A stretch of 37,546 nt of DNA from positions 1 through 37,546 of the IMG/VR virus record IMGVR_UViG_3300030099_000988; one strand, given 5' to 3'. Positions within the stretch are counted from its first letter, which is position 1, and every line of letters starts with the position of its first letter. Below the pieces are notes generated by a model. It ran no database searches and was not told where the DNA came from. It saw only the letters and a list, made by a program, of their open reading frames with translations. The stretch comes from a virus. This document shows, piece after piece, positions 4,405 through 32,050 of this stretch. The translations under genes were made by a program, and so were the position numbers.

Positions 4405-6735
4405 TTACTGGTGAGTGTAGCCGTAAAGAGTGATTTTGCCGTCTGTGAATTGCAAATGCTCATTGAGTGTTCGCGGAGTTCCAGTAATTGCCATTGATTG
4501 GAACCTAAGCACCATTTTATCGAGAGACGGAGCGGCAGTAGGCCACACTCCATCTGTATTGGTGTACCAGCGTGTCCTTCGGTTGGCAATTGTTGTGTTT
4601 GGTGGATTAAAGACCGTCGAGCCGTCGGGTCCGACCCTCGTCAAGTTTCCTCCATCGTTAAACAACTGCCAGTGAGCGGCCATTACTACATATTGACCAA
4701 CGGTGTTAAATCGTTCCCAAACATAGTTAGGGTAGATACAAACTGAACCGTAGAAGTGGGCATCCTCGCCAACCCCGGTTGGTTCGTGAGAGAACACTGC
4801 GAGGCGTAGTGTCTCTCCATAATTGGCGCTATTCGAGTTCCACTGATAAGTGCCCGAATCTTGAACTTCGTAGCCGAAACGACCGGGCGACCCCGCTCCG
4901 TATCCCATCCTGTCGAACCCCGGTACGAATGTGCCTGTACTGTCGGGATTCGACTGGTATAGACCGAGACTAATCAGTGAATCTCTGAACAAAGTGTTAG
5001 TAGGCCAGCCAGAAGCTTTACGGCCCACATGTTCAAACTCCAATTCCAGCTTTTGGTAATTCATGAAAGAATCCCCCTCAGCTGGAGTAAATTCAGCATC
5101 GCTCAGGACTCCACCTCCATCACCTACCCATGTTCCGAGTACCTTACGTGTTTTCTGTGAGTCCACATAAGCCTTAGTAGATGCATCCTGTGCAGAAGAC
5201 GGGTCAGATACATTGATGATCTTGTTGCTGCCCATGCTGTAGTCGCCAGTTGCAGCAGACAAATTATTGAGTGAATGACTTGACTGAATATCAAAATACC
5301 ATTCAGTGAAACTTGTCCCATCAAACATCCTGATGTACTTAAAAGTCAGTTGAATCAGAGAGGAAAAGACCAGAAGTTCCTGTGATATGACGGTGGAACT
5401 GGTCCCCCCAAGTCGATTGACCAAGAGAATAACTTTTTCTCCTGATGTAACACCTGAAGGGTAGTTCTTAGCAGCAGGGTCCCCCGGGATTACACCAGTC
5501 ACACGCTGAGGAGTAACCAGCAAATTAAGGTCTTGATCAGGGGCAAGTCCGGCTCCGGACAGTCCTCCATTGGAGTCCACATACGACTTGGGGACTGCAA
5601 GGTTGCTTTCAAAGGTCTCCGGACTACCGGCGCTGATAGTGACCTTGTTGGCTGTTACATCGCCAGTTGATTGAGTGACTGAGAACCCACTTCCAACCGT
5701 CAGATCTCCTCCTGAGATAACAGCCCCGGTAGTGGTAACGGTGGTTGGGTTTACCGCCAAAGTACTCGAAGTAATAGGTTCAATCACCTTGGCCTTGAGA
5801 GTGCCCCCAGCAGATATGCTGGTGTTCTCATTATTAGATGAGTCAGTCACCTTCAGCATGGCGGTGTTATCACCACTGGCTGCACCCTTAAGAGTAAGGG
5901 GGGTTTCGGTGTTGTTGGCAGCTTCTCCGGTAGCCGGGAAGTTAAAGACATTCCTAGAGAGGCCAAAGTTTTGAACAATCAGCTTGGTGCCGTTGAATCC
6001 AGAGGTGTCTAAATCGGTTCGGCCCAGAATGGTTAGGATGTTACCGGCCACTGTGAAGTCCACCGTGGGATGCTGAATAACACCAGCAAGTTCCACAATG
6101 AATGTTCCGTCAACATTGCTAGATGGGGCGGGATTAAGAGTAAATGTGGTGTCACTGCCCACCTCGGTTCCGGTGCTTGCTGTGCCGAGTTGGAATGAGT
6201 AAACCTGAGGGACGCTGGGGGCGTTCGAAATACCCGCAACAAAGGCAGAAACTTGACCTAGGGTTACGGCATCCTTATCTGAGGCACCATCCTTCAGGTT
6301 GATAATGTTTCTGTTGCCTGCGTCATATTCGTCGGTGGCGGTGAGGGGCAGGGATCCTGTACCGGCATCAAGCTGCTCCTGAAGCACAAACAGAAGCTGC
6401 TCAGAGTTCTGATTGAGATCCTCAGCACGGAGCAGGGATGAGTTCACAAAGTTGGTAAGGAGATTTGTGGAGGGAGTAACTCTCTGAATTCTTATTCTAT
6501 TGGTCCCGGCAGGGAAACTTGAAGTGATGGCACTCAAATCAAGGGTGGTTGTTCCCGATATGACTGAGGTGGTAAAGCCGGGAGAACTGGTACCGGTGAA
6601 GGTCACCGAGTCTCCAGAAGAGGTGTTTGCAGCCACAACAGTCAGGTGAGCAGTCTCAAGATACTTCAGATCAGTATTTGTAAACGACACGCTCGTCTGG
6701 TTGGTGTAGATGATGTCGTGGTAGCTATTGGGCAT
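4405..6735 (-). CDS. Tail fibre protein (T7 gp17-like N-terminus)
   Basis: The 776-residue protein begins MPNSYHDIIYTNQTSVSFTN, and its first ~150 residues fit the T7 tail-fibre N-terminal anchor domain, including RIRIQRVTP and the LRAEDLNQNSEQLLFVLQEQ helix. A long Ser/Thr/Gly-rich shaft follows, with two repeats around DGASDKDAVTLGQV and DPSSAQDASTKAYV that mark junctions. The C-terminal ~230 residues, rich in aromatic residues, probably form the host-binding tip. T7 gp17 is 553 residues, so this fibre is longer. It lies after the core protein genes, as in T7. Confidence 0.93.
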   Translation of the reverse strand: MPNSYHDIIYTNQTSVSFTNTDLKYLETAHLTVVAANTSSGDSVTFTGTSSPGFTTSVISGTTTLDLSAITSSFPAGTNRIRIQRVTPSTNLLTNFVNSSLLRAEDLNQNSEQLLFVLQEQLDAGTGSLPLTATDEYDAGNRNIINLKDGASDKDAVTLGQVSAFVAGISNAPSVPQVYSFQLGTASTGTEVGSDTTFTLNPAPSSNVDGTFIVELAGVIQHPTVDFTVAGNILTILGRTDLDTSGFNGTKLIVQNFGLSRNVFNFPATGEAANNTETPLTLKGAASGDNTAMLKVTDSSNNENTSISAGGTLKAKVIEPITSSTLAVNPTTVTTTGAVISGGDLTVGSGFSVTQSTGDVTANKVTISAGSPETFESNLAVPKSYVDSNGGLSGAGLAPDQDLNLLVTPQRVTGVIPGDPAAKNYPSGVTSGEKVILLVNRLGGTSSTVISQELLVFSSLIQLTFKYIRMFDGTSFTEWYFDIQSSHSLNNLSAATGDYSMGSNKIINVSDPSSAQDASTKAYVDSQKTRKVLGTWVGDGGGVLSDAEFTPAEGDSFMNYQKLELEFEHVGRKASGWPTNTLFRDSLISLGLYQSNPDSTGTFVPGFDRMGYGAGSPGRFGYEVQDSGTYQWNSNSANYGETLRLAVFSHEPTGVGEDAHFYGSVCIYPNYVWERFNTVGQYVVMAAHWQLFNDGGNLTRVGPDGSTVFNPPNTTIANRRTRWYTNTDGVWPTAAPSLDKMVLRFQSMAITGTPRTLNEHLQFTDGKITLYGYTHQ

Positions 6736-6744
6736 GACGTTTCC

Positions 6745-9700
6745 TTATTTCTGCCTTTCGGGAAGGTTGGCTTGTTCAATTAGTGCTTTACTCAACTCGT
6801 TGATGAAAATGGTATTCCTCATAGGGATGAGCCTCAAGATCGCCCGAAGCTCTGGTTCAGTGAGTTCATTGCCTACACGTCCTCCTGACACGGCGTTGAG
6901 CGCAGCCGCGATCAGTTCTTTGCTGGACCTATATCCTCCCGTAATCAGTGCCCCACCGGGCGTGTTATCAAAACTGAACAGGTTCACACCATACCCAGAT
7001 GTCCTGTAGGTATTGAATATGTCTTCTTCTTCAGGATCAATTATCTGGGATATAGGGCTTGCGACGGCTGGAATGATTCCGGACATACCGGATCTAATTA
7101 CACCGGCAATCATAAGTTTGGGAACCTCTATGCCAATGAACTCCTTTGACCCATATGCCTCTTCTTTATATTCCCTGAGTTCCTTGCCACTGAACTTAGT
7201 CGCACCAATCTCGGTAGTGATTATGTATCCAAGAGTTCCCAATAGGGCTGTTGACAGGAAAGTTGCTCCAGCCTTGCCATCCATCATCTGGAGGTTGTAC
7301 ACCAACTGCTTGTTGGTGGCGTTGATGGCAAACTTCCTGAACTGTAGAAAGACATTAGCCATTGGATGAGACATCCACGGGCTCAAGTTGCCGATCTTGT
7401 TGCGTTGAATGACACGATCAAGATCTCGTCGTAGAGCGAATACCAGCTTGTTTCTCAGACCATCATCCATTGCAGACAGGTTGAGCTTGACAATGTTCTT
7501 TCCCAGCAACCCCTTCGTGATAGGAGTTACATTGGGATCCGCCAGTGCTTCGAGAATGGTGTCGGTTTCTTCGTCAGTAAACCCGAGATATTCAAATCTC
7601 TTTCTGGACTTAGACCAGAAGTTATTGGTAACCCTCTTTCCGTCCTTGACCCGATACGCCATGTTCACCCAGTTTTGCAGGGTTGCCATGACATGACCAT
7701 TTCTCAGTAGCTCATCCATCGGTCCAATACCGAATGGGTTCAGAGTCAAGCCGCGTCCCGCCACACTTACTGGGGCTCCCGAAGCTACAGTCCGGGCACC
7801 TTTCATGAAGGCTTTGCCTGTTCTTCTTATCCCCGATCCAACATCTCCAAGTCCAGATTCTTCAAAACCCACATCTTCGTGGACCCTGTAGGACCTAGTA
7901 AATCCTTCATCGAGCATGTCTCCCGCTCTCACAAAGGAATCAATCTCTTCAAGGACTTCATCACTGAGTTGGCCGTTCGCTGCCTGTCTGACTAGCTTCC
8001 GCAGTCTAGGCACAGATTGAAGCGTCGCTCGGAGACCGTTAGAGATAGTGGAGTTGGCAAGCTCGGGCAACTGAGCAACCCCTACGTTGCCCATGGATTG
8101 GATGAACGCATAATCCTGAAGGAATCTGAGTGCCCTTCTGCTCTTGTCACTCAAGTTACCTTGGGACAATCCCATGATGGCGTTGTATGCCACCTCGAAC
8201 CCTGCTTTCATCTCATCACTGAGACCGCCTTCACCCTTTTCCATCCATGCAATCATGTCCTGCCGGGTAGGAACCGTGGCTCCTGTGCCCTGAACATCAA
8301 TATCAAGAGCCTTTGCCATCTTTGTGAGTTCTGCTGAACCCAGCACACGGGTGGCGTACTGCTCCATCAAGAGGGTCATGTCGTTATCAAGTAGATCAGA
8401 GAACTTCAGGACACCCTTACCGGCTACCTCAATAGCTGTTGCCTCGTTGAAGTTGATCCTTTTATTAGTCATCCCCAGATGGGGGTCGTTTGACTTGGGG
8501 ATGAAGAAGTCCAATATCTCTTCAACTTCATCCTTAGTGATTTTGGACCTATTGAGTACCCTTCTCATAGCATCCAGTTTCTGCTGGCTGTTCTTCCCAG
8601 TAACACGGGCATTGACATACCCATTAGGATCCTGAGAGTACTTGAACCAACCGTTGACAACAGCAGACACTTTCTTATCAGCCATGTCGGGGTTGTTAGC
8701 TCTGAGAGCGTTAGTCAGTAGTCTCCTGACCTCAACTTCACCGAACTTTTCAATGGCTTCATTGACCTTTCGGGCAACAGCACGTCGTGGGACATAGTTG
8801 TTGTCCACAAAGTTTCTGAATCCTGCAATACCAGACTCTTCAGCAAAGGTCGCAAGTCCTCCAAAGAACTCACGCACGGCTTGAACAGCCTTTCCTTCCA
8901 GCCCATCCAGCTTCTTTCCTGTCCTAACGGCCTCAGCTACATTCGCATCAAAGTCCTTGAGAGCTTTCCTGCCGTTACGTCTTTCAATAGCCAGCCGCGC
9001 CTTCTGGTAGTTCCCCATTGCTGTTTGGCGGTTTGCATACACAACAGTCTCAATATCAATTCTTGGACTGCCGGTCGGGTCTTCAACAAGTATGGAGAAG
9101 AAGTCTCTCACTCGCTCGTTCTCTGACCTCCGAGCCATGACTGCCAGTGGCTTCAACTTGGGACCAGAGTTGATGAACTTTGAGTAGATGCTTTCCTTGG
9201 GTATTTCCTTACTCAACTCTTTGGCATAGTCCTCAACAGAAAACCTCATCAACTTGAGTTGGTCCTTGAGTTCATCGCTGGACTCATTGATGGCTGTGAT
9301 CATTGCCGCAACCGATTGGTTATCAATCTCAAAGTCATCTCGCCGAGCGGCAATAAGTTCTTCCCTAAGTTCTTTAACTGATCGAGGAACTTTCTTGGGA
9401 GTTTTGAAATTACCCCCGGTGTATTCCATAGTATTGATTGGGTTCCGTCTGGACCTCATTACTTGATCACTGGGGTCGAACAGGATCAGAACATTGTGCT
9501 TCTTTTTGCCCACAATCTTACCGCCAATGTGGGTGTATCCTTCATAACCAAGGCCCCTGAGCTTTTCGATCATGTCGCCTACAGCGTCACCTACTTCGTC
9601 CATCAATACGTCACTTGGAACTTCTGAGGTGAAAGCCCTATAGGCATCAGAAATTGTGGCATCCTTGTTCTTTCTGAGTGAATTTAGGGTGTCTTCAAAG

Positions 9701-11037
9701 TCTTCCATATCGAGACTCTTGGTCACAGAGAACTCGTTTTCATGGAGGGCGTCAATAAACAACCTTCCTTCATCAGAGCTAAGAGGCTGCTCAAGATCTA
9801 ATAGTTTTTGAGTGTTGAGGTTCAATTCGTAAACCGTTGGCGTTCCACTCTTCTTTCCCCGACTTTTAGCGTAACCCTTGGCCACATCTATATCATCGGT
9901 CAGATACAACCCTGAACCAAACAGACCATCAATTCTGGTCATAAATGGATCGATAGTTTCTTTGGAAAGATTAAGAGTCCCCGTTCCGTGATAGTAAATC
10001 TTTTTGTTTACATCCACAACGGCGGGTTGGTATTTGAACTTTCCTGCTGAAGGAGTGACTAATCGAGAGGTTTCAATCCCTCTAGCCTTAGCTTCAGCGA
10101 ATAGATCCTTCTTTGAAAGACCGTTTATATACCTCGTAGTGCCCTCTTCACTCAGGAAAGGCCCCATAGTTCCGGGGCCTATACGAGCTTCTAGGGCCAT
10201 CAGTTCTCTAACGATCTCCCCAGTTTCCTTGCCTTCAGTATCCAGCCCTCTTCGTTGGGCAGTTTCTTTTATGTTTGCGGCATTCTCGGGGGTAATTGCT
10301 GCCAGCATTTCATCCAAGTTTGCCTTTTCAACATCAGCGGCAATCCTCATGCGCTCAAGTTCAACTTGCTTTTTCCACCCGCTCTTGAATCCAGCCATGG
10401 TGGGGAAGGCCGCAGAAAGTCCGGTTCCCAGTCCCATAGAGGCTAGGGTGTTGATGACAAAATCTTCACCATCAGTCAGAGGGTCCATTACCAATCTGAC
10501 ACCTTCTAGGGGGACATCTACAGCCGCAGATATGCCCAGACCCCTCAAAGCTGCTTGGGCTCTGACGGTCCTTGTGGCTGTGACACCAGTAGCAACTGCT
10601 TTTGACCCAATCGCCAGCCCCGCTACAGGAGCGGCAACCAAGAAAGCAGGGTCCAACATGGCGACCCCAAACTGGTATGCCATACCTGTGAGGCCCATGT
10701 CAGCCAGCTTTTGTTGGGTCTTAAGTCGGTCTCTTATGGTCCGGTAGCGATACAGAAACTCTTCTTCACTCTCAGAGTCGGCCAGTTTTTCAACAAGGTT
10801 GGCGGGCAGGTTTCTCCCATACTTTTCAAGAAAATTAGGACTGATCTTGAAGTTAGGATCTCTCTTGCTTGGTCGATAGAAGTAATCAACTATACGGGAT
10901 GCAATAGTCACATCCTCAAACACATCCATGAATGAGGGGGTGCCGAGATCTTCTTTCTCAGGAGTAGCCTCGCTGATCATTCTCGGTGTTGGGGTAGGGC
11001 CAACAGGAAGATCAAGATAGCTAGGTATCTGCGTCAT
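6745..11037 (-). CDS. Internal virion protein D (T7 gp16-like) with embedded ADP-ribosyltransferase-like domain
   Basis: This is the largest protein (1,430 residues). Its place after the gp15-like gene and its size match T7 gp16 (1,318), the ejected core protein that forms part of the cell-envelope channel. T7 gp16 starts with a lytic transglycosylase domain; I see no such motif here. A hydrophobic stretch lies near residues 119-155, and another near the C-terminus contains TALLGTLGYIITTEIG. Residues ~345-530 look like an ADP-ribosyltransferase fold: YYHGTGTL (His350), FGSGLYLTDDIDVAKGYA (Tyr378), VYELNLNTQKLLDL, LGYEGYTH and NVLILFDPSDQV. The third catalytic position is not clear. The ATG overlaps the upstream stop (ATGA). 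Confidence 0.9.
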   Translation of the reverse strand: MTQIPSYLDLPVGPTPTPRMISEATPEKEDLGTPSFMDVFEDVTIASRIVDYFYRPSKRDPNFKISPNFLEKYGRNLPANLVEKLADSESEEEFLYRYRTIRDRLKTQQKLADMGLTGMAYQFGVAMLDPAFLVAAPVAGLAIGSKAVATGVTATRTVRAQAALRGLGISAAVDVPLEGVRLVMDPLTDGEDFVINTLASMGLGTGLSAAFPTMAGFKSGWKKQVELERMRIAADVEKANLDEMLAAITPENAANIKETAQRRGLDTEGKETGEIVRELMALEARIGPGTMGPFLSEEGTTRYINGLSKKDLFAEAKARGIETSRLVTPSAGKFKYQPAVVDVNKKIYYHGTGTLNLSKETIDPFMTRIDGLFGSGLYLTDDIDVAKGYAKSRGKKSGTPTVYELNLNTQKLLDLEQPLSSDEGRLFIDALHENEFSVTKSLDMEDFEDTLNSLRKNKDATISDAYRAFTSEVPSDVLMDEVGDAVGDMIEKLRGLGYEGYTHIGGKIVGKKKHNVLILFDPSDQVMRSRRNPINTMEYTGGNFKTPKKVPRSVKELREELIAARRDDFEIDNQSVAAMITAINESSDELKDQLKLMRFSVEDYAKELSKEIPKESIYSKFINSGPKLKPLAVMARRSENERVRDFFSILVEDPTGSPRIDIETVVYANRQTAMGNYQKARLAIERRNGRKALKDFDANVAEAVRTGKKLDGLEGKAVQAVREFFGGLATFAEESGIAGFRNFVDNNYVPRRAVARKVNEAIEKFGEVEVRRLLTNALRANNPDMADKKVSAVVNGWFKYSQDPNGYVNARVTGKNSQQKLDAMRRVLNRSKITKDEVEEILDFFIPKSNDPHLGMTNKRINFNEATAIEVAGKGVLKFSDLLDNDMTLLMEQYATRVLGSAELTKMAKALDIDVQGTGATVPTRQDMIAWMEKGEGGLSDEMKAGFEVAYNAIMGLSQGNLSDKSRRALRFLQDYAFIQSMGNVGVAQLPELANSTISNGLRATLQSVPRLRKLVRQAANGQLSDEVLEEIDSFVRAGDMLDEGFTRSYRVHEDVGFEESGLGDVGSGIRRTGKAFMKGARTVASGAPVSVAGRGLTLNPFGIGPMDELLRNGHVMATLQNWVNMAYRVKDGKRVTNNFWSKSRKRFEYLGFTDEETDTILEALADPNVTPITKGLLGKNIVKLNLSAMDDGLRNKLVFALRRDLDRVIQRNKIGNLSPWMSHPMANVFLQFRKFAINATNKQLVYNLQMMDGKAGATFLSTALLGTLGYIITTEIGATKFSGKELREYKEEAYGSKEFIGIEVPKLMIAGVIRSGMSGIIPAVASPISQIIDPEEEDIFNTYRTSGYGVNLFSFDNTPGGALITGGYRSSKELIAAALNAVSGGRVGNELTEPELRAILRLIPMRNTIFINELSKALIEQANLPERQK

Positions 11038-13352
11038 TCTCTATTACCCTTCATCTTGATGCTGGGATTTCTTGTTCCGTTGGGGTTCAAAAAATCAACA
11101 TTACCTAGCTGTCCCGGCTCCTTAAGCAAAAGTGGGGTCTCGAATTCGCCGTTGACAACGGGATTTGTTTTACGACTTCTCAAGGCAGCCAGAGTGACAA
11201 AGTGTTGTCTCCTGAAGTCCGCCTCAGTCAACCTGTCAAAGGTCGAGGTGTTGTTATAGACAATCCTAAAAGTACCATCTGCTTCCCCTGAATTCACAAA
11301 TTTGATCTGTGAAAGAACTTCTTTGTATTCATCAGATCCGGGTTCACCATCAGACTGTTGGAGAGCAAGTTCATGAACCAAAGAGGCAACTGGTCCCTCA
11401 GTTATCTTGAGGAGTCTTTCACCCTTACTGTCCTGCATGGCCTCAATAAGGTTTGTAAATAGGGCCTCTCCTTCGTCCTCACTGATAGACAGTCCTGAGG
11501 TTGTCATATAAGAGAAGTGCTTACGCGTGACAGTAAAGGTGTTGATAAGCTGGCTTGCGAAAGAAGCCGCATTTTCCCCACCAGTACCCATTATCTTGTA
11601 CCTAATTTCAGCAAGTTTGATCAGCCGCTGTGAAAGTACAGGATCAAATCCAGCTTTACGGATAGAACTTTCAAGCTCTTCTCGTATCCCATCTTGCCCA
11701 GTAAACTCGATGTCACTGGCAGTCAATTCAATTCCACCAACTCTACTCAAGGTGGCCATCGCTCTCTCGATGTCTCCTGAGCCGATTCCAAGGTCTCCAA
11801 ACTGCCCCTGATCACCTCGCTCTAGGATATCGAGAAGGTAATACATCTCCTGCTCACCTTCCTTTGGAAGGAATGCACCCATGAGGGACTTGTCTTCACT
11901 GTTCTTAAACATCCGGTAATAGGCAAGAGCCGCTTGGATCTTGGGGATGTCTTCCTCAGTGGTGTTTCTGCCACCCTCAATGAGATCCATACCATCAGCC
12001 AGAAGGATCCTGATGTTGGGGTCAACATACTTGTCCTGATTAAAGCTGGATTGAGCGGCAGCGAAAGAAGCCTTAAATGGATCATCAGTTGCCTGAGAAG
12101 CGGCCCTTTGCCGGGTCTGATGCCTGTTGACCCTTGCTCTATCTTTCATTTCATCAAAAGGAATCTTCTTAGGATCACCACCCTCTTGAGGAATTAACAG
12201 CGATCCATCCCGTGGATCAATCTCGACACCCTCAACCCGGTTAGCAATGAAGTCAGGAGTAATGGCGTTGATGTTCAACCCAACAGATCCCATCTCAACT
12301 GCGATCCGAGTCTTTGCATCTTCAACAGTAGCAATATTTCTTGCCTTGATTAGTTCGTTATTTGCCCTTGAGATGGCCCCCGCAATCTGATCTTCTGCAA
12401 GGTCGTATTGAACCTTAACAGCATCACTGGATTCGAGGAGGGTCTTACCGTTTGGCAATTTGGTCTGGGTCAATACTTGCAGTGCAAGCTGATCCCCATC
12501 CTTAGCTAGATCCAGCAGGTGGAGTCCCCCTATTTCGAGTGTTTTAGAGTTGCCAAACGCTGCTCGATAGTTGTAGTCGCCCAGAACGCTAACTGCGGCA
12601 GCTTCAGGATCAAGAGCAGTGATGGGTTCACCATCAAGTCCCATAGCATTTGGGTTGATGTCCGGTCTTTCTGAGCCATTTCTAAGAGCGAAACCTAAAT
12701 CAGCACGGAGCGCATTGACTTGATCCTCATACTCCTTGGTGGTCCTGAGTTCAATTAGTCTCTTGGTCGCACGCCGGCGAATCTTGGAGAACCCTTCTTC
12801 AAAAGCTGAGGCGTAGTAATAATCCTTTTGAACAGACTCTGCGATGTTCAGGGGGTTCATCTTGTTCCCCATGTAGTTAGCGATTGCCGTCGTGGGTTCA
12901 TCATTATCCATCAGGTCGCCACCCTGAAGGAAGTCGTTGTCGAGGTCACGATCAATCATGTCGCTGACGGCCTCAACATTCAGCTTGGCAAGAGCCCTTC
13001 GGGCACCCACGGCAAACCACGGGTTCTCATTATTGGTGAGGATCCCCTTGTCCACCAAGGTAGCCACATCAAGGGCGTTTTCCTTGCGGGCCTTCAAGAT
13101 CTCTGGGAGGGAGGCTTCGACTTCTGTCCCACCCATGACAAGGGCCTGTTGGGACTCCTTGCGCTTGTTTTCAGCAAAGATGCCCGCAAGGGTGTTTGAC
13201 AGCATCTCCATCTGTCTGACAAGTGGACTGATGAAATCGACCGGTGGAGTAAGGTTTTCTCGGGCCACTACTTGCTGTGATGGGGCAGCTTCACCAAAGG
13301 TGGTGAAGGACGAAATAGGGTTAGCTATAACGTCGTAACTTGGTTCATCCAT
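11034..13352 (-). CDS. Internal virion protein C (T7 gp15-like)
   Basis: This 772-residue, mostly helical, charged protein lies between the gp14-like and gp16-like genes and is close to T7 gp15 in size (747). By analogy it belongs to the internal core and is ejected to form the periplasmic tunnel and help pull DNA into the cell. No enzymatic motif is seen. The assignment rests on position, size and composition rather than sequence signature. Its ATG at 13352 lies 12 bases downstream of the gp14-like stop. Confidence 0.88.
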   Translation of the reverse strand: MDEPSYDVIANPISSFTTFGEAAPSQQVVARENLTPPVDFISPLVRQMEMLSNTLAGIFAENKRKESQQALVMGGTEVEASLPEILKARKENALDVATLVDKGILTNNENPWFAVGARRALAKLNVEAVSDMIDRDLDNDFLQGGDLMDNDEPTTAIANYMGNKMNPLNIAESVQKDYYYASAFEEGFSKIRRRATKRLIELRTTKEYEDQVNALRADLGFALRNGSERPDINPNAMGLDGEPITALDPEAAAVSVLGDYNYRAAFGNSKTLEIGGLHLLDLAKDGDQLALQVLTQTKLPNGKTLLESSDAVKVQYDLAEDQIAGAISRANNELIKARNIATVEDAKTRIAVEMGSVGLNINAITPDFIANRVEGVEIDPRDGSLLIPQEGGDPKKIPFDEMKDRARVNRHQTRQRAASQATDDPFKASFAAAQSSFNQDKYVDPNIRILLADGMDLIEGGRNTTEEDIPKIQAALAYYRMFKNSEDKSLMGAFLPKEGEQEMYYLLDILERGDQGQFGDLGIGSGDIERAMATLSRVGGIELTASDIEFTGQDGIREELESSIRKAGFDPVLSQRLIKLAEIRYKIMGTGGENAASFASQLINTFTVTRKHFSYMTTSGLSISEDEGEALFTNLIEAMQDSKGERLLKITEGPVASLVHELALQQSDGEPGSDEYKEVLSQIKFVNSGEADGTFRIVYNNTSTFDRLTEADFRRQHFVTLAALRSRKTNPVVNGEFETPLLLKEPGQLGNVDFLNPNGTRNPSIKMKGNRE

Positions 13353-13364
13353 CGAATGGCTCCA

Positions 13365-14045
13365 TTAAAAGCTGAACATTGCGGCGTTGACATCAGAGAA
13401 TGATTGCTGATTGTCGGGGAGTTGGCCCTGAGTTTGAGCATAATTAGATGCATAGACATTCGCCAAGCTCATAGCCAAGTCCATACCTCCGGGGACATAT
13501 GCAGTCTGCACCTGTTCACCGGGGAAAATTGGCTGCATCGGGGCCGGCATTGCTTGATTGATTCTGTTCTGGGCAGTAGCCCTAATACTCGCCAGCCGCC
13601 GCTGAGACTGCCTCATGAACCCCTCAAGGTTGTCATGGATGACCGAGGCGGCTGCGGCTTCATTACGAGCGAAGTTGTCTAGTACCAGTCTCTTGGACTG
13701 TCCGGTTGTCTCAGTGTTGGTGGTGCGGAAGCGCCCAGACGATTGAGCGGCCTGTCTGGAGTACCTTTCAATGGTCCCAGCAGCCTGCGCCCGTCTCTGT
13801 CCAATGGCATCAAACACAGTTGAATACTGCTGGTCAGCATCAGCCATGGCCGACTTTGCGGTCTCCTGATACCTCTTGGTATAGAACTCCATCAGCTTGC
13901 GCTGATATTCAATGTTTGCGAGGTACTGCTTATTTCGCTGTATCTGGAGTTGCCGAAGATACCTGTTGTTCTGACGAGCCTGAGAGCCAGCCGCTGCAAA
14001 CTGGGCGACGGCAAGCGCTGCCTGCATTGCTATAGCTGCGCCCAT
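13365..14045 (-). CDS. Internal virion protein B (T7 gp14-like)
   Basis: This 226-residue protein starts MGAAIAMQAALAVAQFAAAG, a hydrophobic Ala-rich N-terminus. A long Gln/Arg-rich helical region follows (ARQNNRYLRQLQIQRNKQYL) and then an Ala-rich segment. This is the typical pattern of T7 gp14 (196 residues), the first core protein ejected, which forms the outer-membrane pore. It overlaps the gp13-like gene by 16 bases. An alternate reading frame in this stretch is a shadow. Confidence 0.92.
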   Translation of the reverse strand: MGAAIAMQAALAVAQFAAAGSQARQNNRYLRQLQIQRNKQYLANIEYQRKLMEFYTKRYQETAKSAMADADQQYSTVFDAIGQRRAQAAGTIERYSRQAAQSSGRFRTTNTETTGQSKRLVLDNFARNEAAAASVIHDNLEGFMRQSQRRLASIRATAQNRINQAMPAPMQPIFPGEQVQTAYVPGGMDLAMSLANVYASNYAQTQGQLPDNQQSFSDVNAAMFSF

Positions 14046-14479
14046 AGGTAGAACTCCTTAAATGAATGTTTATTAGGTCCAATAATGTAGCTGGACCCAA
14101 ACTTGAACCCAAGCATCTTCAACCAGCGAAGTACAATTTTATTTCGCTCATCAACAATGTTGTGGAGCATAGAGTACTTCTTAGACATACGTTCAATCTC
14201 GGCCTTGGCAAGCCGCGAAATCGGAAGGGCGAATTTTTCAATTCCTTTCCGAGACAGCATCCATATACACCCCCCAGTTTCCTTAGGGATCACTCCGTAC
14301 ATACAAAGCACGGTGTCCTCGCACATGGCTGTGAAGCACTCGCCGTGTAGATACCCATACATCAGAGAAGTACGAGGCTTTATACCCAAAGCCTTAAGCT
14401 CATTAAGATCCTGATTTCTGAGATGAGGATGAAGCTGGGTAATGTCTGGGAGAATAGATCGCCTCAAACTCACTTTCAT
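14030..14479 (-). CDS. gp13-like virion assembly protein (acetyltransferase-fold, DUF2833-type)
   Basis: This 149-residue protein lies between tail tube B and the gp14-like gene, exactly where T7 encodes gp13 (138 residues). LHGECFTAMCEDTVLCMYGV and GGCIWMLSRKG in the middle and RWLKMLGFKFG near the end match the GNAT-like layout of this family in T7-like phages. T7 gp13 is needed for assembly of the internal core. Catalysis is doubtful. The ATG overlaps the upstream gene end by one base. Confidence 0.88.
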   Translation of the reverse strand: MKVSLRRSILPDITQLHPHLRNQDLNELKALGIKPRTSLMYGYLHGECFTAMCEDTVLCMYGVIPKETGGCIWMLSRKGIEKFALPISRLAKAEIERMSKKYSMLHNIVDERNKIVLRWLKMLGFKFGSSYIIGPNKHSFKEFYLWAQL

Positions 14480-16977
14480 TAGCTTTGGGTGGCCCTTCTT
14501 GATGTGAACTCTCCCTCGAACTGAGTAGTTTGGAAATCGCTAGGTAGATGACTTGAATTGAGTAGTTCTATCTTTACTCGATCTGACTGGGCAAACACAG
14601 GCACTCGGAAGTCCCCACTTTCGCGAGGGATCTGGTCAGTAGTGCTTGAGGAATCCCCAAGGTTCCTGCCAGTAAAAGTATAACTTGTGGAGCTTCTAAA
14701 CTCAGGAGTAACTTTAACCTCAAAGAATGCCGTGTCGGCAAACAGGATGGTCATATACCTAATCTGATGGCGGTTGCCCCTAGTCGAAGGTGTGGTTATT
14801 TGGTTGTTCCTGAAGTTCGCTGCCTTGAGCATGGGCTTACTGAACTCATACCTCATAGTGTAGGGTTCGCCGATGAACACTGATCCAGAGGAGAAGTCTC
14901 CCTGAACAGACACAGATCCAGCCGCTCGGTCAGTCACTGTCAGGGAGAGTCCATCAGAGGTGACTACCTCAGAGCTAGTTGAGGGCGTGTACTCGAACCC
15001 TGTAAAGGTGGTCTTGTCAGTGGCAGCGTCGTAGGTGCCTGTCTTTGACACCCTTCGATCCAGTCGGGTCACATAATTAGATCCAGCATCTGTCAACCCA
15101 GTCTGCATCTTCATGCTTTCAAGGACCAGCTTGGTGCCTCTCTTGAACAGGATAAATAGGGTGGTGTCAATAAAGTTAATTGAGTAGATATTCGATCCAA
15201 AGGTGAACTTGGACCAAGAAGACAGTCGGCGTTCGCCCCCAACTTCAAAGTAGTAGTAGACGTACATGACGCCGGGATCATTGTCCGTGATCGCAAGAAG
15301 CACATTCTCATGGGTTGTTGCGGCCATCTTGGTGATAGTGCCCTTGATGTACTTGGGCACTTGGGCAGTCACTTCAACAGCCTCAAACTGAACATCAAGC
15401 TCATTGACCTTAAAGAACTGCTTGACGCCATTGAAGTCGCCTCGGGGTATCCCGAAGAATAGGTTGGATCCAGACACCACAGGCTTGGTTGTTGCGGTGA
15501 TCTCAAACCCAGTCTGGGGGGTAATCGATACGTTAATGGGGCTAAGGTTGGGCTCCCCTTGGAGGCTGAACTGACTGGTATCTGAGAACAGAACCAGACG
15601 GCCTGCAAAGGGTACAGCCTGCTTCAGGTTGGATACAGTCGTACCTCCTACGGCCACATCAATCACTGATGAGTCCAGTATTTGGGCCACTGTGGTCCTA
15701 TAGAAGTTGAAGTATTCACCGACCTCAGACATGATGACGTTTTCCCCGGACAGGAACACAAGCCTGTTCCGGAAGAAGCTCACATCACTAATTTTGTTAT
15801 CTATGAAAGTTGGGGCTGGGTTGGTCAGTTCATCGCCCACAAGTCGGGGTTGGAATTTCAGTTGTCCCATGTTTGGGGGGTCGGCGGTGCCCCCCTCAAA
15901 GCTGCCATCAGCAGCCGTGAACTTAAAAGTACCATCAGCTTGTCGAATAAGAATGTGAGGGAGGGTTGAGAAATCGAACTCGTTATTGATGCCTCCAACG
16001 GTGGTTTCGATCCATCTACCCTTACTGGGCTTGGTGGTGATCGTAGGGTCATCAGCTTCAAACTTACAGTAGTAGTTATCTACCTCAGCTTCAGGATCAC
16101 CTTCAATCTCAATGATCATCCCATGAACTGCAATCTGGGGCAGTTCAGTAAACTTGCGTACCTTGTCCTTGATGACCTCAACAATCTCATTTCCCTGACC
16201 ATCAGAGACGGTGGGACTGAAGTCTGCTGTTCCGGTTACGAAAATAACGGTGGTTTCATTATTGACAGCAGTAAGGGTTGATCCCGTAGTGGGTGGGAAT
16301 GTGTTGCCGTTGAGGGCAGTGACAATACGGTTAGCCGTGGCTATTGCGTCAAGACCATCGCCAGAAACTCCACCATTGCCAAAGTCATCAGAAGTCCCAT
16401 CCGAAGTAAGTCCGGCATCTGTATCATTGACCTTTAGTTCAATCTTGCACTTGCTGAAGTTGGAAGGGGATCTCTTGACCACAATCAGAGCCTCATTGGG
16501 GGCCGAAGTGAGGCCACGGGAAAATGATGACAAGGAGGTTGAATGGGCCACCGTCTTCTCTGAGTTGACCAAGAAGGTCACATCAGCAATCGTCACAGCT
16601 TTCAGTGAGGTTCGGGGGGTTGTGGTGGTCAGATATGCCTGACCAGTTTCGGGGGCATCACCTTCATTATCTGCGGTGATAGTCTTCTCTACACCAGCCA
16701 TATCAAAAACCTTGATGTTGTTGGCGTCGTTGTCTCCATCACAGACAATAAAATACTGTTCAGTGCTGTCGCGGTTGACATGGTGGATGAACAGGTTGTC
16801 GTTGGGGTTGTCGAGTAGCTCTTTGATGTGCTCGGTCGGGGGACGCTTGGTTAGCCCCTCAACAGTATTCGCCACAGCGTTCTCTTGAGCCTCGCATTGG
16901 TTGATTAGTCTCATTGAGTCAGGCTGCTGACTGACACCCCCAACCATGTTTGGAACTTCATTGGTGATAAGTGTCAT
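14479..16977 (-). CDS. Tail tubular protein B (T7 gp12-like nozzle)
   Basis: This 832-residue protein starts MTLITNEVPNMVGGVSQQPD, the N-terminal signature of gp12-type nozzles (GGVSQQP). It continues with NTVEGLTKRPPTEHI and LIRQADGTFKFTAADGSFEG and a long beta-rich body. T7 gp12 is 794 residues. It forms the distal tail tube that carries the fibres. The start overlaps the stop of the gp11-like gene by one base, so the two tail-tube genes are coupled. Confidence 0.96.
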   Translation of the reverse strand: MTLITNEVPNMVGGVSQQPDSMRLINQCEAQENAVANTVEGLTKRPPTEHIKELLDNPNDNLFIHHVNRDSTEQYFIVCDGDNDANNIKVFDMAGVEKTITADNEGDAPETGQAYLTTTTPRTSLKAVTIADVTFLVNSEKTVAHSTSLSSFSRGLTSAPNEALIVVKRSPSNFSKCKIELKVNDTDAGLTSDGTSDDFGNGGVSGDGLDAIATANRIVTALNGNTFPPTTGSTLTAVNNETTVIFVTGTADFSPTVSDGQGNEIVEVIKDKVRKFTELPQIAVHGMIIEIEGDPEAEVDNYYCKFEADDPTITTKPSKGRWIETTVGGINNEFDFSTLPHILIRQADGTFKFTAADGSFEGGTADPPNMGQLKFQPRLVGDELTNPAPTFIDNKISDVSFFRNRLVFLSGENVIMSEVGEYFNFYRTTVAQILDSSVIDVAVGGTTVSNLKQAVPFAGRLVLFSDTSQFSLQGEPNLSPINVSITPQTGFEITATTKPVVSGSNLFFGIPRGDFNGVKQFFKVNELDVQFEAVEVTAQVPKYIKGTITKMAATTHENVLLAITDNDPGVMYVYYYFEVGGERRLSSWSKFTFGSNIYSINFIDTTLFILFKRGTKLVLESMKMQTGLTDAGSNYVTRLDRRVSKTGTYDAATDKTTFTGFEYTPSTSSEVVTSDGLSLTVTDRAAGSVSVQGDFSSGSVFIGEPYTMRYEFSKPMLKAANFRNNQITTPSTRGNRHQIRYMTILFADTAFFEVKVTPEFRSSTSYTFTGRNLGDSSSTTDQIPRESGDFRVPVFAQSDRVKIELLNSSHLPSDFQTTQFEGEFTSRRATQS

Positions 16978-23421: not shown

Positions 23422-23620
23422 CGCTGATTCCATTCATGACTGCAACTTTCCCTAGTTCGATCAATCCCAAGACAGCATGGAAAGCACCCTCAAACCCCAC
23501 AGTGATGTCCTCGATGTCTTCCGTTCTGTTGCTGGCTCCCAAGAAGACCATGCAATCATGCCTCCTACGAAGCTCGTTCAGCATCGCTGTTGTCGTTACA
23601 TATTCAAGTGATTCACTCAT
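23396..23620 (-). CDS. Hypothetical protein (74 aa)
   Basis: MSESLEYVTTTAMLNELRRR starts a predicted helix, followed by HDCMVFLGAS and an acidic C-terminal end. I recognise no family. Its ATG overlaps the stop of the homing endonuclease gene by four bases (ATGA), and its end overlaps the exonuclease start. Before the endonuclease arrived, it was probably the direct downstream neighbour of DNA polymerase. Confidence 0.75.
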   Translation of the reverse strand: MSESLEYVTTTAMLNELRRRHDCMVFLGASNRTEDIEDITVGFEGAFHAVLGLIELGKVAVMNGISDDENHASD

Positions 23621-24042
23621 TTTAATTTCCTAAACTTGTAGGGGAGGTAACTCCGTTGATGCTTTAACTCTTTGAGTCGTGCATACATGCTTTTCCTGAC
23701 CAAACATTTTGACACATTAAAGAAGGGGGCCATGAGAATGATATCGACCTGTGGTTTCTTGTACTTCAAGTAAGGATACAGAGTCCTCATCAAGTCTCGG
23801 GCATCGGCTCCCATCACTTGCCACTTGAAAAAGCAATGATCATGAGTCTTTCTTTTTTGGGCGTATAAATTACCACCGCCAATCTTATGAGCCTCTTCTA
23901 AAAGTTTATAGTCAACACTATAAACATCGATGGCGGGGCATCCTTCCTTCAGGGCCACATGACCTTCTCCATCCACAAACCCTGCAAGCCATGCAAGGTC
24001 AGTGAGTGTCGGCCCAGCTATGTCCAATTTTGTATTCTCCAT
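23617..24042 (-). CDS. Free-standing LAGLIDADG homing endonuclease
   Basis: The start at 24042 (MENTKLDIAG) gives 141 residues. LAWLAGFVDGEG at residues 16-27 is a LAGLIDADG motif with Asp24 and Glu26, and there is only one copy, so it would act as a homodimer. HDHCFFKWQVMGADARDLM and a basic C-terminus fit the DNA-binding remainder of the family. The gene overlaps the 3' end of the DNA polymerase gene by 44 bases in another frame, so it parasitises that end without breaking the polymerase. It would cut allelic DNA of competing phages. Confidence 0.88.
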   Translation of the reverse strand: MENTKLDIAGPTLTDLAWLAGFVDGEGHVALKEGCPAIDVYSVDYKLLEEAHKIGGGNLYAQKRKTHDHCFFKWQVMGADARDLMRTLYPYLKYKKPQVDIILMAPFFNVSKCLVRKSMYARLKELKHQRSYLPYKFRKLK

Positions 24043-25825
24043 CGAGTGGACATCGAAACTCGTAGGGTTCACCCGCCTCACGCATGGATTGTACTGCAAT
24101 TCTCCCAACATCTTCAGCCTCACTTTCAAATGCCTCAAACTGAACCTCGTCATGTACATGCATGATTTGGTTTGCTTGGAGCTTGTTCTGTCGAATGTAT
24201 CTGTTCATCTTGATTGTTGCCTGCTTCATCAGGATGCTGCCAGCCGACTGCAACAGTAGGTTGAGGGCAGCATGATCAGACCTTATTGGTAGCCGGCGAC
24301 CATCAATGGCGGGGAGCCAGTCCTGTGTCTTGAGTCTGTTCTTTATCGCACGCTTCAACATCTTCAATGCAGGGATACCACTCTCCAGCATATTCCTCAT
24401 ATGGCGCCCTTCACGGCGACCGCCCCCAACAAGCTGACCTATCTTGGCATCACCCGCCCCATAAAGGGTGGCGTACATGATGCCCTTACCCACACCTCGA
24501 TCGACCCCCATCTTGTCAGCGTTGAACTGGTGGATGTCACCTTCTTGGATCACCTTGATGTACTCGCCTTTATCCCATTTTGCTAGATAGTGAGCAAGAC
24601 AACGAAGTTCCAACCCTGACATATCACAGCCAACCATGAGCATACCGGGGGTCGGCTTGAACAACTCCCGACACTCACTCCCGAACGGAGAACCCAGCGC
24701 GGGGACCTGTGCCAAATTTGGACGCGAGTGACTGCACCGAGCAGACACGGTGCCTATGGACTGAACGTGTCCGTGGATGCGGCCCTCACGACTGCTCCGT
24801 ATCCAAGACTCTTTACCTTCAGAAAGCTGACCAATTCTTTTGCAGATCATCAGATATTGTGAAAGGACCTTGGCTTCAGGGTATTTCAACTTAGTCAAGA
24901 CAGTTTCATCGACCTTCGGTCTGCCATCACCAGTGAACTCGGAGGGCTTCCAGTCATACATCTTGATCAGGGCATTGGCTATCTGGATGCGACTTCCGGG
25001 GTTGAAGGGGACAACACGCTTACGAAGAGGTCCGGGCTTCAACACTTTCTTGATGGCATGGGGGGCGTCCTTCTTGCGCTCATACCTCTCATCAGTACTT
25101 GGATCAAAGTAATACTGAGGAGTTTTCATGTGCTCTTCTTGAGCAGGGAAGATTTCAGTCAGCTTCTTCTCTAAGTCAATCTTTTGGCCAATCAACTCGG
25201 TGTGAAGTTTGAAGGCTGCCTCCTCGTCAAACACAACACCATTCTCTTCTTGCTTGATCAGAATATCCCTGAAGTCTCGCTCCATCGCATAGACCTCAGA
25301 TACAAACGTCTTCCGTATCTCCAGCCACAGCTTCGAATTCAACCGAACATCCTGAGCACAATAATCAGCCATCTCAGGAGTGAACACAGACCAGTCAGTC
25401 TGCTTGCCAAAGTCACCTTTGTTGAACTTCAGTCTATGACCCCATGCTTCGAGACTGTACCGTCCACGCAACTTGGTGGGGAACTCAGGATCCTGACAGT
25501 CAGTCCGAACCACATCAGGAGACATAATCCGACTAGCAAGAAGAGTGTCAATCGAGTGGCAGTTAGCAAAGGAGAAAGACGGGTAGAACTTCTTGATAGC
25601 CTTGAGATCAAACCTGTCGATGTTGTGACCAATGATCCGATCAGCCATGCCCAATCTAATCAACCCGTGTATGAGGTTCTTATCCTCGCCATAGCTGTCC
25701 GAGTAAACATCAACCTGATCAGACCTTGGCTCTTGGATGGCGATGCAGTGGATCACCCTCAGGTCACTGAGTTCATCCCAATCCTCGATGGCGTTGGTTT
25801 CAATGTCGAATACTAGCTCATGCAT
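23999..25825 (-). CDS. DNA polymerase, family A with 3'-5' exonuclease (T7 gp5-like)
   Basis: I chose the ATG at 25825 (MHELVFDIET), preceded by AGGAGGACAAA, giving 608 residues (T7: 704). The exonuclease domain has Asp7/Glu9, Asp70 in NIDRFD and Asp159 in YCAQD. The polymerase has motif A GCDMSGLELR (Asp401), motif B with the RxxxKxxxYxxxYG spacing (Arg443, Lys447, Tyr451, Tyr455) and motif C HVHDE (Asp559). The Tyr at the sugar-selecting site equals T7 Tyr526. The thumb is shorter than in T7. It overlaps the helicase gene by 8 bases. Confidence 0.97.
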   Translation of the reverse strand: MHELVFDIETNAIEDWDELSDLRVIHCIAIQEPRSDQVDVYSDSYGEDKNLIHGLIRLGMADRIIGHNIDRFDLKAIKKFYPSFSFANCHSIDTLLASRIMSPDVVRTDCQDPEFPTKLRGRYSLEAWGHRLKFNKGDFGKQTDWSVFTPEMADYCAQDVRLNSKLWLEIRKTFVSEVYAMERDFRDILIKQEENGVVFDEEAAFKLHTELIGQKIDLEKKLTEIFPAQEEHMKTPQYYFDPSTDERYERKKDAPHAIKKVLKPGPLRKRVVPFNPGSRIQIANALIKMYDWKPSEFTGDGRPKVDETVLTKLKYPEAKVLSQYLMICKRIGQLSEGKESWIRSSREGRIHGHVQSIGTVSARCSHSRPNLAQVPALGSPFGSECRELFKPTPGMLMVGCDMSGLELRCLAHYLAKWDKGEYIKVIQEGDIHQFNADKMGVDRGVGKGIMYATLYGAGDAKIGQLVGGGRREGRHMRNMLESGIPALKMLKRAIKNRLKTQDWLPAIDGRRLPIRSDHAALNLLLQSAGSILMKQATIKMNRYIRQNKLQANQIMHVHDEVQFEAFESEAEDVGRIAVQSMREAGEPYEFRCPLDGEYKIGHSWADTH

Positions 25826-30888: not shown

Positions 30889-31959
30889 TCAGTTAGAAGT
30901 TAAATCCTCAACCGTGTCACGTCTCGTGTCACACGGTATCAAATCTTGAAGATCAGTACAAGCCTCTAATTTATCGATGTCACTCGATAGACGTTTCGCA
31001 TCCAAGTGTGTGTACCTCTGAGTTGTAGCTAGATCCTTGTGTCCAGCCAGTTCTTGGATACGTCTCATATCGACACCATTCTGACTCAACCTTGAACAAA
31101 AAGTATGTCTCATTGCATGAATTGTGTCGCCTGATCCCATGCCGATTCTGTCCCTGACAGATGACCAGTCCTTGCATACTTGATCATATGAGATCGAGAA
31201 GTATTTACCGGTGTGAGGTTGTCGCTGATGATACAACTGATGCAACCGATCAGTCATCGGGATGGACCTAGAAGATGAGTTCTTGGTCTCAGCACTAGAC
31301 AGGATGAACACCCTGCTGTCGAGCATGACATGCATGTCGGACAACATCAGTGCCTCACTGATCCTCATACCGGTATCAAACAGAGTCATGATCAACAGGA
31401 AGAACTCACGGCTGACACCATTCGCTTCTGTCAAGATGCGCCGCTGCTCCTCCTCGGAGTACCACCTGAACCTAGTCGGGGGCTCACCCTGACGGGGGAT
31501 GTGTGGCATCCTCTGCAACTCTTCTCGACGGTAGGCGTGTTTGAGTGCAGCACTCAAGATACTCAGCTTCCGATTGATAGTGCCGGGACGATTACCGTTC
31601 CGCTCAAGCTGGACCACATACTTGTCGAGTGCATCAGTAGTGATGTCATCGATGTACATGGACCCATCAAGTTCGTGGAGCATCTTGTTAATTCGGTTCT
31701 TTGTAGTCCTCCATGACTTCTGCTTGGACCATCGTTGTTCGTAGACAGTCCAGAGATACACATCCAAACAGCGCCACTTCGACTTCTGCTGTTCGGCTTG
31801 TTCTTCTTCTTGATCAGGGGGAAGACCCTTGATCAACCGAGCCTTTGCAGTGATCTCATAATTCTCTGCATCGGCCCTCGTTGGTAGATTCTTTCGATAC
31901 CTCTTCCCACCATGAACAAAGTCCACTTGGAAAGATGATCCTCTAACTCTTATTGACAT
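30889..31959 (-). CDS. int: Tyrosine integrase
   Basis: The start at 31959 (MSIRVRGSSFQVDFVHGGKR) with GGAGGCTTT upstream gives 356 residues. The N-terminal arm-binding region precedes a core-binding SAM-like domain (~65-160). The catalytic set is complete: Arg199 (GMRISEAL), Lys226 region, His281 and Arg284 (HAMRHTF), His307 (LAGHKDLATT) and Tyr316 (QRYTH). It would recombine attP with a host tRNA gene, permitting lysogeny. Its own terminator-bounded unit is separate from the early block. The last codons contain the right arm-site candidate. Confidence 0.96.
   Translation of the reverse strand: MSIRVRGSSFQVDFVHGGKRYRKNLPTRADAENYEITAKARLIKGLPPDQEEEQAEQQKSKWRCLDVYLWTVYEQRWSKQKSWRTTKNRINKMLHELDGSMYIDDITTDALDKYVVQLERNGNRPGTINRKLSILSAALKHAYRREELQRMPHIPRQGEPPTRFRWYSEEEQRRILTEANGVSREFFLLIMTLFDTGMRISEALMLSDMHVMLDSRVFILSSAETKNSSSRSIPMTDRLHQLYHQRQPHTGKYFSISYDQVCKDWSSVRDRIGMGSGDTIHAMRHTFCSRLSQNGVDMRRIQELAGHKDLATTQRYTHLDAKRLSSDIDKLEACTDLQDLIPCDTRRDTVEDLTSN
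30913..30932. repeat. Integrase arm-type site candidate, right pair
   Basis: TGTCAC occurs at 30915-30920 and 30927-30932, again 12 bp apart. It lies inside the 3' end of the integrase gene, where it encodes part of CDTRRDT. An ACCGTGT/ACACGGT inverted repeat (30911-30917, 30931-30937) frames the pair. It is the partner of the block at 30764-30783. Confidence 0.55.
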
Positions 31960-32013
31960 AAAGCCTCCATTCAGTGATATAGAAATATAACACACCACTT
32001 CGATCTTGTTTAG

Positions 32014-32050
32014 TAAAAACAACCCACGGTCACTGGCTGACCGTGGGTTG
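32014..32050 (-). terminator. Strong rho-independent terminator between early block and integrase
   Basis: A perfect 13-bp stem (32020-32032 with 32038-32050) with a 5-nt loop is followed on the minus strand by TTTTTACT. It ends the early transcript after the DUF932-like gene. The integrase therefore needs its own promoter between 31960 and 32013, where TTATATTTCTATAT is AT-rich, or read-through. Confidence 0.93.

Follow-up and report, generated by a model that had tools for sequence, protein, structure and literature searches.

A predicted ADP-ribosyltransferase module in the gp16-type ejection protein of a marine T7-like virus

ADP-ribosyltransferases (ARTs) in proteins that phages deliver from the virion are already an established theme, and one of them sits in a solved ejectosome, that of cyanophage A4, where chain 9k3a_B is identical to A-4L ORF27L and was deposited as 'Tail protein'. 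For phage T7, gp16 is a model ejection protein, with cell-wall cleavage as its only enzymatic activity in the sources used here (including PMC8954989); it comprises a membrane region TMH I (residues 243–410), a hub assigned to the cytoplasm (411–1118) and a second membrane region TMH II (1119–1290), and its transglycosylase is not common to all gp16s (PMC8954989). The ART family closest to our subject was defined by a His in strand 1, a Tyr in strand 2 and an Asp in strand 5, with the virion RNA polymerase of Roseovarius Plymouth podovirus 1 as prototype (Iyer et al., PMC5512222), the sequence of which shows YHGTGS...GLFFTN...GGYDGAIV. That paper does not mention gp16, and a partial literature search found none that links a T7-type gp16 with an ART. 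Here we describe a predicted ART domain (residues 345–530; 9448–10005, minus strand) within a gp16-type internal virion protein of 1,430 residues (6745–11037, minus strand), encoded by IMG/VR record IMGVR_UViG_3300030099_000988 of a marine T7-like virus of bacteria. The whole 37,546-base record was analysed and is called the window below.

Judged from sequence and structural model together, residues ~345–530 are an ART domain of the His-Tyr-acidic type, nearest to the ARTs of polyvalent proteins. The first-pass annotation, made from the letters alone, had proposed an ART-like domain here, and the open reading frame (ORF) and all the motifs that it quoted are present: YHGTGT (residues 349–354), FGSGLYLTDD (373–382), VYELNL (402–407) and NVLILFDPSDQV (515–526). 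Pfam ART-PolyVal (PF18760) matched at E 8.9e-5 with the whole protein and at E 2.5e-6 with the segment, followed by DUF3990 (E 6.6e-5) and then PARP. Comparison ARTs were gathered from IMG/VR, and ten trimmed domains were aligned with that of the window; all of the resulting 11 rows have YHGT and G-[YF]-[DE]-G, and in most of them a strand ending in F-[ND]-P comes next. A profile-profile check bore out the assignment as well, since hhalign matched the ten other phage ARTs to the window segment at 95.7% (E 1.1e-8); two other stretches of this gp16, taken as controls, scored 0.2–0.3%. Sequence searches of the PDB gave chance-level matches only, PARP4, PARP12 and a KptA-type enzyme among these.

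Structure prediction pointed the same way. The AlphaFold2 model of residues 324–551, built from the 11-row alignment, has the ART strand order, with a predicted local distance difference test score (pLDDT) of 65.9 and a predicted template modelling score (pTM) of 0.65. The sole PDB match at E <0.001 by Foldseek was 9k3a_B (E 1.1e-4), and VIA-align likewise ranked this chain first, with a Z score of 12.3 over 173 residues at 3.5 Å (chain residues 1418–1607); tankyrases, diphtheria toxin, KptA, and RES and Rhs toxins followed with Z of about 6 (from 6.4). Matches to the model in BFVD bear the name PolyVal ADP-ribosyltransferase. Because of the gap in Z between 12.3 and 6.4, and because the lower matches are almost all ARTs, we regard the predicted fold as firmly assigned, within the limit that the alignment behind the model itself consists of ARTs.

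By its sequence and setting, the carrier is a T7 gp16-type internal virion protein, the identity that had been given to it at first reading: it matches PHROG_342, 'internal virion protein with endolysin domain', over residues 40–1428 (E 1.3e-95), and the genes around it lie in the T7 order gp12-13-14-15-16-17 on one strand. The N-terminal peptidoglycan transglycosylase of T7 gp16 is absent by Pfam and PHROGs, and the alignment begins past it; the protein still counts as a gp16, because not all gp16s have a transglycosylase (PMC8954989). Mapping the T7 regions through a 22-sequence alignment placed TMH I, hub and TMH II at window residues 46–219, 220–1243 and 1244–1402. The TMH I-aligned region (10381–10902, minus strand; PMC8954989) has hydrophobic stretches at residues 116–152, 166–184 and 193–211, and the TMH II-aligned region (6832–7308, minus strand) has two, at residues 1255–1278 and 1300–1327. 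The ART fills a slot of variable length, residues 326–547 (9397–10062, minus strand), which lies between the two membrane-aligned regions and within the part placed in the cytoplasm for T7.

By homology to the topology of T7 gp16, the ART would face the cytoplasm. We infer packaging, ejection, topology and enzymatic activity as follows: the protein would be built into the internal core, as its homology implies, and be ejected at infection; residues 46–219 and 1244–1402 would then span the inner membrane, and the ART would stay with the cytoplasmic-hub part, where it would draw on host nicotinamide adenine dinucleotide (NAD+) to modify some macromolecule of the host, most probably a protein by likeness to T4 Alt, ahead of any phage gene expression. 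It is conceivable, if unlikely, that the ART works in the periplasm, or that its substrate is DNA or the ejectosome, and not a host protein of the cytoplasm, given that the topology is drawn solely from T7 and that ARTs of the superfamily, such as DarT, can modify nucleic acids. A periplasmic site is hard to square with the mainly cytoplasmic location of NAD+ and with a slot on the hub side of the region equivalent to TMH I.

His350 in strand 1 (YHGT; 9988–9990, minus strand), invariant in the alignment, is predicted to be catalytic and to bind NAD+, and Tyr378 in strand 2 (GLYLTDD; 9904–9906, minus strand) is predicted from the alignment to be catalytic and to stack on it. The third position had been called unclear, with activity perhaps altered or lost. 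We found, however, that LGYEGYTH (residues 496–503), a motif missing from the earlier list, aligns with the family's G-[YF]-[DE]-G and places Glu499 (LGYEG; 9541–9543, minus strand), at the start of strand 5, in the column of the family's YDG Asp; the same change to Glu occurs in our comparison record L179 (and in L180, which is identical), and the other nine rows have Asp. The corresponding model strand (177–186) starts at residue 500, right after Glu499. Taken together, the alignment, the definition of the family and the model strand make Glu499 the likeliest third catalytic residue. Most ART families, as in the PARP and diphtheria types, usually carry Glu at that position. Because Glu is common at this place in other ARTs, the candidate triad H350/Y378/E499 looks complete, and the doubt about activity is not supported, though neither is it disproved. 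By the strict His-Tyr-Asp definition strand 5 carries Asp; with Glu499 there, we file the window ART as a close variant and not as a strict member.

That the ART fold is catalytically dead or structural, a spacer or a nucleic-acid- or protein-binding part of the gp16 hub, strikes us as improbable. The module has diverged fast. In the ARTs of L137 and L178–L183, strand 2 reads SIWFTDD, with Trp at the expected position of the catalytic Tyr, so that these putatively ejected ARTs may have a changed activity or none. The window nevertheless keeps His350, Tyr378 and an acidic third residue, the last of a kind usual elsewhere and shared with L179 and L180.

Several further points weigh against an active ART effector in this protein. 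The Pfam ART-PolyVal score of the segment, 28.7 bits, is just below the curated cut-off of 31.2. The hhalign match covers the first half of the fold only, so that support for the second half comes from the multiple alignment and the model; the model in turn depends on an alignment of other ARTs, and prediction from the single sequence was uninformative (pLDDT 38). Searches of phages by tblastn, of IMG/VR and of GTDB genomes returned no close homologue of the window ART, which also fits a dead module, as does the replacement of the family Asp by Glu. Identity in the alignment with T7 gp16 is low, and the protein is known from a metagenomic contig. With all this in the balance, we consider it probable that gp16 here carries a virion-delivered ART effector, predicted to be active on the host before phage expression.

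Comparison of gp16s across related phages, a check that the first-pass annotation had called for, showed that the ART stands in place of a linker of 58–125 residues in six close relatives. In L090 and L091, whose gp16s are the closest, identity to the window protein is 66% before the slot and 72% after it, and the slot has 72 residues versus 222 in the window; the slot measures 125 residues in L198 and 58 in L092, L199 and L200. No ART was found in the slot of these six proteins, with flank identity of 39–72%. T7 gp16 has 29 residues at the same place, in agreement with the earlier statement that it has no such domain. The ART is best read as a swappable module inserted in a gp16-type ejection protein, and such phages seem to gain and lose it.

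To survey other core proteins, we ran Pfam over the N-terminal regions of further gp16s and the large ORFs next to them, about 95 in all (99 records searched), and ART-PolyVal turned up in only two other records. One of them, L137, encodes a PHROG_342 gp16 with the ART upstream of the core, and the other, L192, an ART-bearing internal virion protein of PHROG_6651 type, which is a different type of gp16. The ART cassette of L192 (~696 bases, 231 residues; L192:5961-6658) is missing precisely from its sister L193 (L193:5999-6001), while the DNA flanking the junction is 90% (3.7 kb) and 98.3% (707 b) identical between them. Since L193 retains DPADPSIL, with which the ART motif GNRGTFDPADPSIL ends, the comparison suggests that the cassette was lost there. 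The same L192 protein (L192:4558-7401, plus strand) has a zinc-metallopeptidase-like motif, GIHEVAHVARRW, upstream of its ART, and its ORF runs past the contig end within a GLGPGKGPGEGE repeat. In L178–L182, the ART is encoded by a separate ORF of 820 residues, which lies immediately upstream of that for a virion structural protein. Two of these ORFs, each of ~820 residues and placed among the ejection-protein genes of related marine podoviruses (L178:4978-7431 and L179:4930-7413, both plus strand), pair ART-PolyVal with a RelA/SpoT-like domain (E 1.7e-8 and 8.7e-11), which hints that a (p)ppGpp-type enzyme is ejected.

The patchy occurrence of the module also raises the question of an assembly artefact. 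A chimera, in which the ART of another phage was misassembled into this gp16, would account for close relatives without the domain and for a G+C fraction of 0.441 in the ART stretch against 0.495 +/- 0.017 in same-size stretches of the rest of gp16. We think it very improbable, because a single unbroken frame crosses both junctions, the domain exactly fills the length-variable slot, L192 and L193 show a like presence and absence, and ARTs recur in other gp16-type proteins. A wider reading, a little less likely than not, is that the gp16 segment from TMH I to the cytoplasmic hub serves as a slot where T7-like phages swap host-modifying enzymes, with an ART here and, in core proteins of related phages, an ART alone or joined to a RelA/SpoT-like domain; the ejection machine would then deliver an effector disarming or reprogramming the host before phage transcription. 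Short helical repeats of type LSKKELFAEAKARGIET also occur at window 10063–10290 and in the slot region of relatives, L198 having at least three copies in its gp16 slot; by eye they are SAP/HeH/Rho_N-like and possibly DNA-binding.

Around the carrier, the gp17-type tail fibre (4405–6735; Pfam Phage_T7_tail, E 3.3e-20), the 772-residue core protein assigned to gp15 by position only (11034–13352), the gp14-type (13365–14045; Pfam T7_gp14, E 3.7e-6) and gp13-type (14030–14479; PHROG_308, E 1.7e-31) internal virion proteins and the gp12 nozzle (14479–16977; Pfam Phage_nozzle, E 1.8e-214) are all encoded on the minus strand. Neither Pfam nor PHROGs gave a family match for the gp15-position protein or revealed a peptidoglycan hydrolase in gp15 or gp16 of the window, which leaves the phage's cell-wall enzyme unaccounted for. 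The window also encodes a T7-type RNA polymerase and a tyrosine integrase (30889–32022, minus strand; Phage_integrase, E 6.7e-23), the latter pointing to a temperate lifestyle. An ORF overlapping the replication genes (23617–24159, minus strand) gave a weak LAGLIDADG-like match (E 5.7e-4). By terminase, the closest cultured phages are roseophages and Pseudomonas phage LUZ100, at ~60% identity, and GTDB genomes scanned with gp16 showed no prophage relative.

If the reading of an ejected, active ART is right, T7-like phages, like T4, can bring a host-modifying enzyme in with the first DNA, a pre-loaded weapon that can put ADP-ribose on host molecules, and the phage core would be a carrier open to evolution. 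The effect of an ejected ART is directly testable, since some relatives have the module and others lack it.

Set against T7 itself, the window protein is homologous to gp16 from residue ~40 to the end and shares its gene order and its two membrane regions; T7 gp16 has an N-terminal transglycosylase and no ART, and in the window protein this is reversed. T4 Alt resembles the proposed function, being a virion-packaged ART injected with the DNA, but it is a separate protein of a different ART clade and no strict relative: the Arg-Ser-Glu site of the Alt/VIP2 group (PMC5512222) differs from the His in strand 1 and Tyr in strand 2 seen here. Nearer are the ART-PolyVal and Tox-ART-HYD2 families, which share the H-Y-acidic triad and a pattern of the type YHGT...G(L/I)(Y/F)(F/L)...G(Y/F)DG...F(N/D)P, and, as in the ARTs of polyvalent proteins (Iyer et al. 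2017), the domain lies inside a large protein expected to be ejected. The window differs from them in having Glu, not Asp, and in its carrier, a gp16 rather than a virion RNA polymerase or a multi-enzyme polyvalent protein; the ART is the only enzymatic domain recognised in it, whereas polyvalent proteins have several enzymes.

The arrangement itself is closest to that of A-4L ORF27L and Pf-WMP3 ORF26, which come right after the internal protein at the gp15 position, as gp16 does, in podoviruses with a T7-like core order, and which have an ART-like domain with the strand-2 Tyr. T7 gp16 has no ART, yet such a protein does have precedents, in these two ARTs at the gp16 position and in those of other marine T7-like phages. 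That the motifs belong to a nuclease or another fold mimicking an ART is scarcely credible: RefSeq does label Pf-WMP3 ORF26 a 'ParB-like partition nuclease', but this label stems from PHROG_33290, which matches its residues 1–1173, whereas residues 1156–1432 match PHROG_832, 'RNA polymerase ADP-ribosylase' (E 2.9e-24), and the structural matches of the window model are ARTs. The HMMER profile of the 11 ARTs fails to detect the A-4L and Pf-WMP3 domains, and hhalign matches them weakly (6.6%, E 0.0055), so the link rests on structure and on motifs (YHGT/FHGT, GTYFS/AIYLT and GVDAL/GIDGV, respectively). The two cyanophage proteins have Asp in strand 5, where the window has Glu499; their phages, unlike that of the window, are Saffermanviridae; the remainder of each shows no detectable sequence homology to T7-type gp16; and their ART is near the C-terminus (1418–1607 of 1717 and ~1199–1361 of 1495 residues), whereas in the window it lies between TMH I and the hub. 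Our reading of the window protein also proposes a function for a domain that is resolved, but unnamed, in the pre-ejectosome of cyanophage A4.

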